A stretch of DNA of 62,694 nucleotides, taken from assembly GCA_018817125.1 (NCBI GenBank), contig JAHIUN010000013.1:1-62694 (forward strand), in the 5' to 3' direction. Below, one piece after another: positions 3,842 through 57,039 of the stretch (its first letter is position 1; the number at the start of each line of letters is the position of its first letter). The notes below the pieces were generated by a model. That model was not told the DNA's origin. It ran no database searches and worked only from the letters and a program-made list of their open reading frames with translations. The position numbers and the translations under genes are program-made. The stretch is from Patescibacteria group bacterium (GTDB lineage Bacteria > Patescibacteriota > Gracilibacteria > UM-FILTER-43-11).

Positions 3842-3895
3842 ACATTTGACATCTGACATGTGACTTTTGACGGTTACTAGTCAATTGTCACATGT
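3842..3895. repeat. Quasi-palindromic array, family ACATTTGAC, in a divergent promoter region
   Basis: Direct units (ACATTTGAC, ACATCTGAC, ATGTGACTTTTGAC) are followed by an inverted copy. ACATGTGACTTTTGAC at 3856-3871 pairs with GTCAATTGTCACATGT at 3880-3895. The array sits between two divergent genes, so it cannot simply be a terminator. Its right arm covers the upstream in-frame ATG at 3892, which argues for the later dgt start. Related units occur at 19625 and 28221. Confidence 0.8.
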
Positions 3896-5987: not shown

Positions 5988-6071
5988 TTTGTAACTCGTA
6001 ACTAGTAATTTTAAATGACGAAAAATTACCAATTACAAGTTACGCCCCGAAGGGGTAAGTTACAAATTACT
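5984..6071. repeat. Quasi-palindromic array, family GTAACTxGTAA, between convergent genes
   Basis: Left units AATTTGTAACTCGTAACTAG and TAATTTT are mirrored on the right by AATTACCAATTACAAGTTAC and AAGTTACAAATTA, with an inner GCCCC/GGGGT hairpin. The array overlaps the stop codons of both flanking genes and could serve as a bidirectional terminator. Confidence 0.8.
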
Positions 6072-7296: not shown

Positions 7297-7412
7297 AGGT
7301 TCGTATTGTGGCTCGTATTGTAGGTCGTATCGTGGGTCGTATGGTGGCTCGTATTGTGGTCTACTATTCGATCCACAATTCGGCCAACCATTCGAGCCAC
7401 TATCCGGGGCTA
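7297..7412. repeat. Quasi-palindromic array, family GGCTCGTATTGTGG, between ctpA and dnaJ
   Basis: About six direct units of 14-15 nt (TCGTATTGTGGC, TCGTATTGTAGG, TCGTATCGTGGG, TCGTATGGTGGC and so on) fill the left half. The right half carries inverted units (GATCCACAATTCGG, CCAACCATTCGAGCC, CTATCCGGGGC). The whole fills the gap between two co-directional genes. The same unit, in the form CCACAATTCGCTCCACCATTCGAG, occurs 49 kb away in the leader of a prepilin gene. Confidence 0.85.
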
Positions 7413-12317: not shown

Positions 12318-12416
12318 CAATTTTCAGTTTTCATTTTTCATTTAAATGGATTACCCTTGTTAATGCCTTATTTTTGGCATTGTTTGAAAATTTATAATTG
12401 AAAATTTAAAATTGTT
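12318..12416. repeat. Quasi-palindromic array, family AATTTTCAATTTT
   Basis: Left arm AACAATTTTCAGTTTTCATT mirrors right arm TTGAAAATTTAAAATTGTTT, with an inner AATGCC/GGCATT hairpin at about 12363-12382. The TTG start of the DinG-like gene lies in the outer edge of the right arm. Similar units occur at 11340, 17556, 22433 and 44584. Confidence 0.8.
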
Positions 12417-17555: not shown

Positions 17556-17632
17556 CCTACATTGTTTATTTAACAATTTTCATTTAATTGGATTTGTATC
17601 TCAAATGGAAATTGAAAATTACTAAATGTAAA
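17556..17632. repeat. Quasi-palindromic spacer array, family AATTTTCATTT
   Basis: Left units around ACAATTTTCATTTAATTGG mirror right units around AAATGGAAATTGAAAATTAC. It fills the gap between the first two operon genes. Confidence 0.7.
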
Positions 17633-19626: not shown

Positions 19627-19691
19627 CATTTGACCTTTGACATTTGACCTTTGACTTTTTGTCAGCTGTCAGCTGTCACATATCAAATGTG
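19625..19691. repeat. Quasi-palindromic spacer array, family ACATTTGACCTTTGAC
   Basis: Left: TGACATTTGACC twice plus TTTGAC. Right: GTCAGCTGTCAGCTGTCACA and ATCAAATGT, the inverted form. It overlaps the subunit I stop and lies just before the rotor subunit gene. The unit is shared with the arrays at 3842 and 28221. Confidence 0.8.
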
Positions 19692-19720
19692 AAAGAATAA
19701 TTCCTAATTTTTTAATCATT

Positions 19721-22001: not shown

Positions 22002-22070
22002 AGAATTGCTGAAGAATAGCCTAAGAATAGCCAAGCGATGCTTAAGCAATTCTCAAGGCAATTCTCAATC
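22001..22070. repeat. ORF-less hairpin, family AAGAATTGCTTAAG (family B)
   Basis: Direct units AAGAATTGCTG, AAGAATAGCCT, AAGAATAGCC are followed by inverted AAGCAATTCTC and AGGCAATTCTC. This is the same unit as the arms that flank the four-helix-bundle gene at 41026-41394, but here the arms are only a few bases apart and hold no gene. Confidence 0.85.
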
Positions 22071-25648: not shown

Positions 25649-25652
25649 TTTA

Positions 25653-25706
25653 TTTCTGATTTGTGATTTCTGATTTCTGATTCACAAATCTCAATTCACA
25701 AATCTA
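25653..25706. repeat. Quasi-palindromic spacer array, family TGATTTCTGATTTCTGA
   Basis: Left units TTCTGATTTGTGATTTCTGA mirror right units TTCACAAATCTCAATTCACA. The same TCAGAAATCAGAAATC unit is found in the leader region of the prepilin gene at 56339. Confidence 0.75.
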
Positions 25707-28194: not shown

Positions 28195-28220
28195 TTGAAA
28201 AATCTTATGAATTAAATTTT

Positions 28221-28275
28221 TTACATTTGACACCTGACTTTTAAAGTCAAAAGTCAATTATCAAAGGTCAAAGGT
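28221..28275. repeat. Quasi-palindromic array, family ACATTTGACxCCTGAC
   Basis: Left ACATTTGACACCTGACTTTT mirrors right AAGTCAAAAGTCAATTATCA plus AAAGGTCAAAGGT. It occupies the infC-rpmI gap. Unit shared with 3842 and 19625. Confidence 0.8.
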
Positions 28276-30762: not shown

Positions 30763-30850
30763 GAACTTTTTCACTGGATCACTTTTCACTGGATCACTTT
30801 TCACTGGATCACTTTTCACTGGATTAGTGTTCCGGTGATAAAAAGTTTTT
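30763..30850. repeat. Tandem 15-bp repeat with inverted end
   Basis: Four almost perfect TTTTCACTGGATCAC units in tandem, then GATTAGTGTTCCGGTGATAA, the inverted and altered form. AACTTTTTCACTGGATCAC pairs with GTGTTCCGGTGATAAAAAGTT. It is the most regular tandem in the window and lies between murB and nnrD. Confidence 0.9.
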
Positions 30851-36827: not shown

Positions 36828-36871
36828 CCTGAATTACAAAATGCGCATTTCGTTTATACTGTACTGATTCT

Positions 36872-36993
36872 ACTCTCTTTAAGATTATTAAGACTTTTGT
36901 GACTTTTAGGACTTTTACGATTATTACGATGATGTATTTTATTCAATCGTAATAGTCCTAAAAGTCTTCATAATCCTAAAAATCCTAAAGAGT
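36872..36993. repeat. Large ORF-less quasi-palindrome, family C (GACTTTTAGGATTATTAAG)
   Basis: Left arm CTCTTTAAGATTATTAAGAC, TTTTGTGACTTTTAGGAC, TTTTACGATTATTACGAT. Right arm is the inverse: ATCGTAATAGTCCTAAAAGT, CTTCATAATCCTAAAAATCC, TAAAGAG. About 50 bases per arm around a 15-base centre. Its unit matches the arms around the four-helix-bundle domain at 58268-58722. The remaining gap to the VanW gene holds an ATGCGCAT palindrome (36841-36848) and the VanW promoter. Confidence 0.88.
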
Positions 36994-40204: not shown

Positions 40205-40251
40205 AATTACAAGAAATACTGTATTACTTGATTTACAATAATTACTATATA

Positions 40252-40320
40252 TAAGTCTTAAGTCCTAAGTCGTAAGCCAGCTATCAGCTTAGAACTTAAG
40301 ACTTATAACTTAGAACTTGT
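40252..40320. repeat. Quasi-palindromic array, family TAAGTCTTAAGTCCTAAG
   Basis: Left TAAGTCTTAAGTCCTAAGTC, centre CCAGCTATCAGCTTAG, right AACTTAAGACTTATAACTTA plus GAACTT. It fills the rsmG-rlmE gap. Confidence 0.8.
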
Positions 40321-44585: not shown

Positions 44586-44655
44586 TTTTTAATTTGAAAT
44601 TTTTAATTACTAGATCTTTCAATAAAAATTAAAAACTAAAAATTAAAAAATAAGT
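44584..44655. repeat. Quasi-palindromic array, family AATTTTTAATTTGAAATTTTT
   Basis: Left AATTTTTAATTTGAAATTTT mirrors right AATAAAAATTAAAAACTAAA plus AATTAAAAAAT. It fills the gap between the STAS and antiporter genes. Confidence 0.7.
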
Positions 44656-50304: not shown

Positions 50305-50385
50305 CGATGGAGGACCCAATCGAAGGTCCAATTGACAGAATGCCAGATTAACAATCAATTGGGTCCTCAACGGGCCCTCAATCGG
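50305..50385. repeat. ORF-less hairpin, family A (GGxCCAATTGAxG), before uvrC
   Basis: Left arm GATGGAGGACCCAATCGAAG, GTCCAATTGAC; right arm AATCAATTGGGTCCTCAACG, GGCCCTCAATCGG. Same unit family as the arms of candidate element 1. The -10 box of uvrC begins two bases after the right arm. Confidence 0.85.
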
Positions 50386-50398: not shown

Positions 50399-52711
50399 AT
50401 GAAGAATTTTAAAAAAATCCTCACCAAGATTCCGAACAAGCCAGGGGTTTATCAATTTTTGAATGATGAAAAGGAGCCCCTTTATATAGGTAAGGCCAAA
50501 AATCTGCGCAAACGCGTACAAACTTATTTCCGACAATCCGCCAAACACAGCCCCCGTACTGCCAAGATGCTGGAGTATGTAGAGGACATTAAATGGATTG
50601 AGACGAATAGCGAGGTGGAGGCTCTGATTTTGGAGGATAATCTGGTTAAAGAACTTCAGCCTAAATACAACGTTTTACTTCGGGATGATAAGAATTTTCA
50701 GTACATCAAAGTGACGGTTGAGCAGGATTATCCGGAAATATACACTGTTCGCCGGATCACAAAAGACCACGCCAAAGGTCGGACAGGCGGTGCTAAATAT
50801 TTCGGTCCTAAAACGTCCGGTTCGGATGTGAAGCGATTGGTCGATACCGTGAAACGTGTTTTCAGGCTGTGCAGTGTACGGAATATCAATCTTGATCCAA
50901 AGGGCAAGCCTTTAAAAGGCGCAAAAGTGGCGGTCAAAATCGGCACCACATCAGCCAAACGTCCGTGTCTGGATTACCATATCAAGCGCTGTGTCGGTCC
51001 GTGCGCGGGCATGGTCACGCCCGAAGAATATCGTGTGCTCATCAACCAGGCGATCGAGTTTTTAGGAGGGGATTATAAGCCGGCGATCGAATCACTGAAA
51101 AAACAGATGCGGGAATTCGCCACCGCTAAAAAGTTTGAACGTGCCGCTAAACTCCGCGATCAGATCATGGCTATTGAACGGAGCGCGGAAAAACAATTGA
51201 TCACCAGTACCGATGTGATGGATCGTGATGTTATCGCGTCTGTGCAGGATCTCGGCCGGAACTTTTTTAACCTTTTTCAGATTCGCAACGGTCGGCTGAT
51301 CGGTCAGGAGAATTTTATTGTGGAAGGGGGTGAGGGACCCGCGGAAGTCATGGAAACCTTTTTACGGGATTATTACGCGATGGCCGCGGATATTCCGAAA
51401 GAGATCCTGATCTCTATTGAGGTCGGTGAACATAAACTGCTTCAGGATTACATCCGCCAATTTACCCGTTCGACTTCGCTCAGGGCAGGCAAAGCTGTTC
51501 AGCTCATTCATCCGCAGGTTGGCAAAAAAGACGACCTCATCCTGCTTTCTGAAAAGAACGCCCGTAGTTTCGCGGAACAGAACCGGGCCCGTTGGATGAT
51601 GGATAAAAGAGAAGAAAAGGCTTTAGAAGAACTGAAAGAGGTCCTTAAGCTTGAGGCTGAGCCTAAGCGGATCGAATGCTACGATATTTCCCATCTTTCC
51701 GGCACGGAAACGGTCGGTTCGATGGTCGTGTTTAAAAAAGGCGAACCGGCAACGGCGGATTACCGCCAGTTCCGTTTAAAAACCACTCAGGGCAGCTTAG
51801 ATGATTACAAATCCATGGTCGAAGTTCTGCGCCGCCGCCTGAATTATCTGCCAGCGGTTTTACCGGAAAGTTATAAATTAGAGAAGGCTAAAAAGAAAGA
51901 TGAAGCCTTTCTCCGAAAAGTCTGGGATCGCATGGAACGATTTGATGTTAAGCAGTTTTATGTGATTCGGAAGAAGGAAAAAATTGTTGCAATAGGCCGT
52001 ATTGATCCACTCGATGAAAAAGTTCACCGCATTGCCGGTTTGTGGGTCGATAAAAAGGAGCAGGGGAAAAAGCTTGGTCATTTTATCATTAAAAAACTCA
52101 TCGAAACCAGTAAACAAAAACGTTTATATTTATTTTGTCATCAGGAACTGGAAACGTATTACCTTAAGCTCGGTTTTGACACTTTGCATCAGCCGCCAAA
52201 AGAACTGAGTGATCACGCTAAAAAGTATTTAAATGAGGTGAAAAAACCGCTTTATATGGCCTATCAGAAAAAGAAGAAGGACCTGTCATTCGAAACCCGC
52301 CCCAATCTTATTGTCATCGATGGCGGGAAGGGGCAATTGCACGCGGCGCATGATGTTTTATTCGAAAAGGGATTGAGTGTTCCTATCATCGCACTGGCCA
52401 AACGAATCGAAGAAGTCTTTATTCCCGGAAAATCCGAACCGATTAATCTCAAATCTGATAGTGAAGGCTCTTACCTTCTTCAGCGCATACGCGATGAGGC
52501 GCATCGGTTTGCCATTGAATACAATCGGTCTTCGCGTGATAAAAAAATGACACAGTCCGCGCTCGACAAAATCCCCGGAGTCGGCCCAAAACTCCGAAAA
52601 CGTTTACTCACTTATTTTGGCTCTGTTCAGAAAATCCGTGAAGCGCCTCAGGTGACTTTGGAACAGATCGCGGGTGAAAATATTGCCAAGAGAATCAAAG
52701 AGAACCTATAA
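50399..52711 (+). CDS. uvrC: Excinuclease UvrC with an inserted GNAT acetyltransferase domain
   Basis: 770 aa; UvrC is usually about 600. GIY-YIG nuclease (KPGVYQFLNDEKEPLYIGKA, near residue 14), UVR motif near 220-250, RNase-H-like endonuclease starting IECYDISHLSGTETVGSMVVF near 420, and terminal HhH (IPGVGPKLRKRLL). Between about residues 484 and 625, in the middle of the endonuclease domain, a GNAT domain is inserted: VAIGRIDPLDEKVHRIAGLWV, KKEQGKKLGHFIIKKLIE (acetyl-CoA loop), ETYYLKLGFDTL. A second small insertion near residue 356 (RSTSLRAGKA) derives from a dispersed repeat. It incises damaged DNA with UvrAB. Confidence 0.95.
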   Translation: MKNFKKILTKIPNKPGVYQFLNDEKEPLYIGKAKNLRKRVQTYFRQSAKHSPRTAKMLEYVEDIKWIETNSEVEALILEDNLVKELQPKYNVLLRDDKNFQYIKVTVEQDYPEIYTVRRITKDHAKGRTGGAKYFGPKTSGSDVKRLVDTVKRVFRLCSVRNINLDPKGKPLKGAKVAVKIGTTSAKRPCLDYHIKRCVGPCAGMVTPEEYRVLINQAIEFLGGDYKPAIESLKKQMREFATAKKFERAAKLRDQIMAIERSAEKQLITSTDVMDRDVIASVQDLGRNFFNLFQIRNGRLIGQENFIVEGGEGPAEVMETFLRDYYAMAADIPKEILISIEVGEHKLLQDYIRQFTRSTSLRAGKAVQLIHPQVGKKDDLILLSEKNARSFAEQNRARWMMDKREEKALEELKEVLKLEAEPKRIECYDISHLSGTETVGSMVVFKKGEPATADYRQFRLKTTQGSLDDYKSMVEVLRRRLNYLPAVLPESYKLEKAKKKDEAFLRKVWDRMERFDVKQFYVIRKKEKIVAIGRIDPLDEKVHRIAGLWVDKKEQGKKLGHFIIKKLIETSKQKRLYLFCHQELETYYLKLGFDTLHQPPKELSDHAKKYLNEVKKPLYMAYQKKKKDLSFETRPNLIVIDGGKGQLHAAHDVLFEKGLSVPIIALAKRIEEVFIPGKSEPINLKSDSEGSYLLQRIRDEAHRFAIEYNRSSRDKKMTQSALDKIPGVGPKLRKRLLTYFGSVQKIREAPQVTLEQIAGENIAKRIKENL
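51467..51490. repeat. CCTTCGACTTCGCTCAGG-like repeat inside uvrC
   Basis: CGTTCGACTTCGCTCAGGGC followed by AGGC is read in frame as STSLRAGKA. Similar copies lie at 20296, 20350 and 62402 in non-coding DNA. Confidence 0.7.
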
Positions 52712-56940: not shown

Positions 56941-57039
56941 TGGAGACCTCGCTTACGGCGGGAGACCTAATGGGAGGCCTAGTGGGTGTATAACCCCAAT
57001 CAGGTCCCCAATCAGGTTCCCAATTAGGCCACCCATTGG
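56941..57039. repeat. Quasi-palindromic array in the pilB leader (family A type)
   Basis: Left GGAGACCTAATGGGAGGCCT, AGTGGG; right CCCCAATCAGGTCCCCAATC, AGGTTCCCAATTAGGCCACC, CATTGG. The arms pair over about 40 bases, right up to the pilB start. Confidence 0.85.

Follow-up and report, generated by a model that had tools for sequence, protein, structure and literature searches.

The array between dnaJ and ctpA

The gap between dnaJ and the gene for a ctpA-like S41 protease is filled by a tandem array of a 12-nt unit, CGAATAGTGGCT on the minus strand (in the dnaJ to ctpA direction), that extends from 7298 to 7406. The locus lies in a 62,694-nt stretch of DNA (the window), contig C2 of a 1.03-Mb, 17-contig Candidatus Peregrinibacteria genome. 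The array has a tandem score of 39 (p≤0.005) and is palindromic: arm 1, near the dnaJ stop (7363 to 7406), pairs with arm 2, near the ctpA start (7302 to 7345), with an inverted score of 22 (p≤0.005). The transcript folds 5.9 standard deviations better than shuffled versions (z -5.9), as would that of any palindrome. A terminator scan of 7297-7412 returned no terminator-like site and no U-tract terminator.

Ten further places in the genome match the array at E≤1e-4, in several cases end to end and through both arms. Comparisons were made with Candidatus Peregrinibacteria / Gracilibacteria MAGs, comprising one congener (G001; 910 kb taken, 250 orthologs, median protein identity 86%) and members of further genera. 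The G001 ortholog of the array is 93% identical, against 47% at flanking four-fold sites, which means either constraint or an exchange confined to the spacer. Among the genomes compared, the array is common to the two congeners, G000 and G001, only. The dnaJ/ctpA junction is reduced to 11-27 bp, with no array, in G005, G010, G008 and G009, and holds other repeats in G006 and G007.

Repeated and inverted units in fifteen gaps

A reading of the window from its letters alone (the sequence-only reading) had picked out fifteen gaps, that at 7297 included, as holding a short unit repeated with variations and then repeated inverted. Scored for tandem periodicity and for inverted arms against dinucleotide-preserving shuffles, all fifteen were found to hold one or the other feature, and 11 held both. 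Tandem periodicity was significant in 13, the exceptions being the gaps at 17556 (p 0.2) and 50305 (p 0.1); inverted arms were likewise significant in 13, the exceptions being those at 3842 (p 0.11) and 56941 (p 0.16).

Between divergent genes, a period-7 array of TGACATC (3842 to 3890; tandem p≤0.005) is matched by a different array in G001. A period-7 palindrome between convergent genes (GTAACTC, 5991 to 6043; tandem and inverted p≤0.005) is unrelated to the array found there in G001, and the AATTTTC palindrome of the same period at 12318 to 12406 is conserved in G001 with one heptamer more. Inverted arms of the AATTTTCATTT family (17558 to 17630; inverted p≤0.005) correspond to an 18-bp junction in G001. 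In G001, the place of the period-7 palindrome inside the V-type ATPase operon (TTTGACC, 19627 to 19694) is taken by an array of the TTTGAAAAC type, which lies upstream of a leader that is conserved. At the period-11 palindrome (AAGAATAGCCT, 22002 to 22057), G001 has a CGAATAGATTC array. The TTTGACC family recurs at 28219 to 28274, where G001 carries the same family. Further scored features are period-7 palindromes of TGATTTC (25652 to 25704) and TAAGTCT (40250 to 40318) and a period-15 array of TCACTGGATCACTTT (30768 to 30832). A period-9 palindrome (GACTTTTAA, 36875 to 36992) lies within an insertion absent from G001 (264 versus 48 bp), and the TTTTTAA palindrome of period 7 at 44586 to 44653 has a TGACACC array as its G001 counterpart. 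Last come a 12-mer-type palindrome (GAGGACCCAAT, 50310 to 50381; inverted p≤0.015, with a weak tandem signal) and a period-12 array (GGGAGACCTAAT/CCCCAATCAGGT, 56971 to 57035; tandem p≤0.013).

Two features near these gaps were recorded separately. The loop of the 12318-12411 array contains a possible, conserved leader peptide, ATG GAT TAC CCT TGT TAA (MDYPC*), which reads ATG GAC TAC CCT TAT TAG (MDYPY*) in G001. The UvrC-like protein encoded at 50399-52711 has GNAT acetyltransferase matches at about residues 507-593; these adjoin a UvrC RNase H domain whose match is split into two stretches, suggesting an inserted domain.

Frequency and placement of the arrays

The genome-wide detection that the sequence-only reading had proposed was run on the window together with another 400 kb of its genome (462 kb in all), and arrays were found in about half of the gaps. 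The sample comprises 290 gaps of 40-350 bp between genes called with a home-made hexamer-based caller, whose gene starts are approximate. Tandem arrays (p≤0.025, 40 shuffles per gap) are present in 146 of the 290, with about 7 expected; inverted arms (scores above all 20 shuffles) in 129, with about 14 expected; and the two together in 95. Matched coding fragments score like shuffles. The period is 7 in 60 of the 146 arrays, 8, 11 or 12 in 18 each and 9 in 13; periods of 10 (one array) and 6 (two) are nearly missing. The palindromes are imperfect, and 12-mer arms have recurrent A.A mismatches. As had been claimed from the fifteen gaps, arrays occur in all gene orientations: 55% of co-directional gaps, 42% of convergent gaps and, less often, 36% of divergent gaps.

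The base of the stem lies within 5 nt of the stop codon in 44% of co-directional cases, compared to 27% under random placement, and there is no excess of short distances on the side of the next start in co-directional arrays. This pattern fits arrays that fill unconstrained DNA. A hairpin bridging stop to start was discarded because distances to the next start are not enriched at short values. The idea that arrays are founded on the gene's own stop codon was also dropped: gene ends are conserved, arrays start after them, and there is little extension across the stop. Stop codons within arrays are enriched in the outer-to-inner direction (8.1 versus 4.9 per 100 nt). The enrichment is just as strong in divergent gaps, into which no gene is read, and so seems to reflect the families themselves and not selection for stops. 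Only 3-5% of the genes in the 462 kb, with or without arrays, have a Shine-Dalgarno-like motif (GGAG/AGGA/GAGG within 20 nt) in front of them.

Unit families, polarity and arm comparison

The arrays belong to about a dozen scattered families, delimited by eye and by motif searches, each with its own unit and period. Period-7 families recurring over the genome are TGATTTC, TTTGACC, TAAGTCT, GTAACTT and AATTTTC; recurring longer units are CGAAATAA (8 nt), GACTTTTAA and TGGGAGTTG (9), CGAATAGACTT and AAGAATAGCTT (11), and CGAATAGTGGCT and GAGGACCCAAT (12). Some families are also present in other genera. A GC hairpin nested within an arm is common to several copies of the GTAACT family, and 11- and 12-mers with common ends (CCGAATAG...ATACGAAAC) are found at many loci. 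Each family has a single polarity, with about 67 loci in agreement and about one plausible exception. When arms were compared, the similarity of arm 1 to its own arm 2 was 0.68, and to the arms of other loci of the same family 0.64 and 0.63. In 2 of 33 cases no other arm matched better than the own arm 2, although self pairs had been preselected for a good stem. The likeness of arms across loci and the fixed polarity thus argue that the arrays are copies of dispersed, pre-formed palindromic families.

A longer palindromic repeat of the same genome (CGAAATCCGAAAC..TTTCGAATTTCGG, C7:190027-193300) is shared with the distant Patescibacteria G131 and G144 (L251, L252).

Gain, loss and retention between sister species

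Orthologous gaps number 170: both species lack an array in 84 of them and carry one in 46, and an array is present in the genome under study only in 25 and in G001 only in 15. In the 44 cases with an array in each species and neither gap shorter than 40 bp, 16 pairs align (four of these with periods of 5 or 13-18, not typical arrays), 12 align in part (flank or part of the array) and 16 are unrelated. Clean presence/absence is seen at junctions of 111 versus 4 bp, 144 versus 0, 95 versus 0, 83 versus 0 and 80 versus 0, and protein C-termini are unchanged at junctions where an array was gained or lost. About ten arrays, that at 7297-7412 among them, are 79-100% identical to their G001 counterparts, against 53.5% at four-fold sites over all orthologs. 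The fate of arrays is bimodal: replaced or preserved. The sequence-only reading had held that spacers fixed and slowly evolving between strains would speak against its interpretation; about ten loci, including 7297-7412 itself, behave in this manner and the majority do not.

The comparison also bore out the direct expansion that had been proposed: G001 is longer by one heptamer in a single arm at 12318 (94 versus 101 bp) and at C7:8405 (125 versus 132 bp). At C13:52305, the arms have 3 versus 4 and 6 versus 3 units. Both arms differ together between the species at C13:49749 and C9:38720, which could reflect a within-locus process or conversion by another copy. At C10:66541, the end of a gene is duplicated by about 65 bp relative to G001 (gap of 89 versus 24 bp), through a process other than that of the arrays.

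Distribution over the phylum and tests for mobility

In a stricter, whole-sequence scan, in which some samples measured only 11-14 kb, arrays outside long ORFs were dense (16-37 per 100 kb) in the genome under study and in G001, G007, G010, G012, G016, G011 and G027, and rare or absent in G003, G009, G015, G051, G022, G053 and G044. Five further families of the phylum have dense arrays with a shared heptamer vocabulary. Of 286 genomes sampled across the phylum, 6 carry the TGAC heptamer palindrome (this genome and five others), with no match for the reversed control; in the five others, tandem hits number 25-60 per 100 kb, some of them being coding repeats or N runs. The 11-mer double unit was found in this genome only among the 286, a sample holding no other genome of the family. 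A viral origin was discarded, the 12-mer double unit having no match in viral contigs.

Target-site duplications are not in evidence: the substring common to both flanks is 4.01 versus 3.98 in permuted pairs (4.24 versus 4.14 in the flush subset), and duplications suggested by eye (AAGTA, TAAT) showed no excess over permuted flanks. One possible target-site duplication was noted, at 36828. Arrays do show presence/absence at orthologous sites; as to terminal inverted repeats that might define a MITE-like unit, TGAATTACAAA/TTTGTAATTCA ends were recognised at 36828 by inspection only. Neither a donor copy nor an intermediate of transposition came to light, and no enzyme whose presence tracks the arrays was found in the genomes compared.

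Origin of the arrays

We favour, with moderate confidence, the reading that each spacer is a copy from one of about a dozen dispersed families of miniature tandem repeats, palindromic in form, that enter gene junctions ready-made. Behind it stand the own unit and period of each family, its fixed polarity, its occurrence at many loci and outside the genus, and the presence/absence or change of family at orthologous junctions. Copies would enter as complete palindromes and survive at junctions because they are tolerated nowhere but in the space from a stop to the following start; unit number would later shift by slippage in single arms as the sequence drifts, and the arrays may then be overwritten by other families. 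The copying step is a putative one, for which ectopic recombination, template switching between loci or some enzyme may be considered.

A convergent mutational bias, in which slippage favouring certain heptamers remakes the same units everywhere, would yield recurrence with no copying. Such a bias would accord with the patchy distribution in the phylum and the absence of a mobile signature, and heptamers are stated to dominate in distant bacteria too in the part of PMC4679880 that cites Mrazek 2007. It leaves unexplained, however, the 11- and 12-mers with shared ends at many loci, the nested GC hairpins of the GTAACT copies and the fixed polarity, and we consider it unlikely.

The sequence-only reading had proposed a local origin at each locus, with slippage expanding a unit and template switching in a hairpin, or an element that copies its own arm, supplying the inverted half. 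Slippage is indeed observed, and the unit has changed in both arms at C13:49749 and C9:38720. Independent local inversions should nonetheless yield both polarities, and one per family is seen, so local inversion is unsupported; moreover, arms are barely closer within than between loci, and the same families occupy many loci and recur in other genera. A local origin is thus quite unlikely. Of the sequence-only interpretation, direct expansion and the recurrence of families stand, as does the statement that these are not just terminators (see below); invention of a unit at each locus and the local making of its inverted half do not.

RNA hairpins, DNA sites or transposase substrates

The arrays might act as RNA hairpins, in the capacity of terminators, mRNA stabilisers or intercistronic regulators. 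The strong folding of the 7297 transcript and the frequent proximity of the stem base to a stop codon would suit this role. So would a weak hint of G-U tolerance: in conserved arrays, 11 changes of paired bases led to G-U and 4 to A-C (one-sided p about 0.06; 43 versus 28 with both species taken as source). Genome-wide, however, mismatches of co-directional stems read on the transcript are G.T in 83 cases versus A.C in 109. Furthermore, in 70 co-directional arrays the antisense strand folds better than the sense strand (-35.2 versus -33.0 kcal/mol, p 0.002; z-scores are equal). In plain co-directional gaps the z-scores do favour the sense strand (p 0.001), indicating that the folding test is able to detect real transcript structure. 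Since the arrays show no transcript-strand preference, most of them are not maintained as RNA hairpins; arrays are also found in divergent gaps, and that at 7297 lacks a U-tract terminator in the scan. Taken together, a role as RNA hairpins appears decidedly unlikely for the arrays at large, the conserved subset being a possible exception. Of the properties of intrinsic terminators, a GC-rich hairpin with a U-tract was not found at 7297-7412, nor a transcript folding preference in the arrays, and the only known RNA family detected in the window is a tRNA. The occurrence in all gene orientations and the missing folding preference uphold the view that the spacers are not simple terminators.

Selection could instead act on DNA, with the arrays serving as architectural or protein-binding sites for a nucleoid protein or gyrase. 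The absence of an RNA strand preference is compatible with such sites, as is the conservation of about ten arrays far beyond that of four-fold sites. Most arrays turn over, however, and many unrelated unit families are encountered at one junction, making this explanation very improbable for the arrays at large.

That the arrays are REPIN-like elements moved by RAYT (Y1_Tnp) transposases can be dismissed almost entirely: Y1_Tnp is encoded in all eight array-rich genomes among the relatives sampled, the present one included, and is missing from the array-poor G003, G009 and G015, but G253, complete and array-rich, lacks it, for which reason RAYT was rejected as a requirement, while G044, G023 and G053 have Y1_Tnp and no arrays, and three Y1_Tnp loci of this genome hold different palindromes (AGTCCGGACT; GTGCGGATAGCTATCCGCAC; GGCCGGGATAATTATCCCGGCC). 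The RAYT-like loci L080, L081 and L083 carry their own REP-like palindromes (AGTCCGGACTCC..GGAGTCCGGACT; GAAAGTGCGGATAGCTATCCGCACTTTC; GGCCGGGATAATTATCCCGGCC), and these differ from the arrays.

Relation to known repeats and significance

The nearest relatives in form are the cyanobacterial STRRs, short tandemly repeated repetitive sequences made of heptamers that were reportedly described by Mazel and colleagues in 1990. STRRs are degenerate tandem heptamers in gene gaps, lineage-specific and with several families per genome. The arrays resemble them in their short tandem units, mostly of 7 nt (60 of 146), their intergenic location and their several families. They differ in being mostly head-to-head palindromes of fixed polarity, in having periods of 8, 9, 11 and 12 as well, and in filling about half of all gaps. 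Neither are they heptamer repeats of the purely direct kind, since 95 of the 290 gaps combine tandem and inverted arms.

The TAACTGA repeats of Beggiatoaceae, Cyanobacteria and Bacteroidetes (169 direct sets and one indirect set in BOGUAY; PMC4679880) are likewise intergenic heptamer arrays, patchy over phyla, present or absent between strains at the same gene pair and subject to 7-nt indels. They are direct, consist of one main heptamer and lie near start codons, whereas the present arrays are inverted, belong to many families and are often flush with stops. REPINs and REP doublets (PMC3116915) are also dispersed, inverted, hairpin-forming miniature intergenic repeats. The ends of REPINs are conserved 16-mers, and a RAYT is linked to them; for the present arrays RAYT is dispensable, and their arms, in place of highly conserved ends of about 16 nt, consist of degenerate tandem repeats of short period with many units. 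Borg tandem repeats (PMC9879509) evolve fast and arise at many loci as well, but are direct and carried by archaeal extrachromosomal elements.

That scattered families fill about half of the gaps, and that between the sister species most arrays turn over and a few persist nearly intact, points to an undescribed kind of dispersed repeat DNA, not to ordinary terminators. For most arrays, a selfish or neutral status at the level of DNA is probable. Pure junk would not account for about ten arrays of such high identity between species; a minority, 7297-7412 included, would have become constrained. We advance only tentatively, as a possibility and not as the expected outcome, that a new class of miniature mobile DNA is involved, one whose palindromic arrays enter the stop-start junctions of Patescibacteria with no RAYT or target duplication, some copies later becoming functional and conserved beyond synonymous sites.

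If the dispersed-family reading is correct, about half of the gene gaps in these reduced genomes would be dominated by repeat DNA undescribed in the open literature searched. The arrays would be exchanged between sister species faster than gene order, altering stop-start distances inside operons, with few copies retained. This would be relevant to the acquisition of non-coding DNA by small genomes and to the long-standing question of the spread of heptamer repeats among bacteria.
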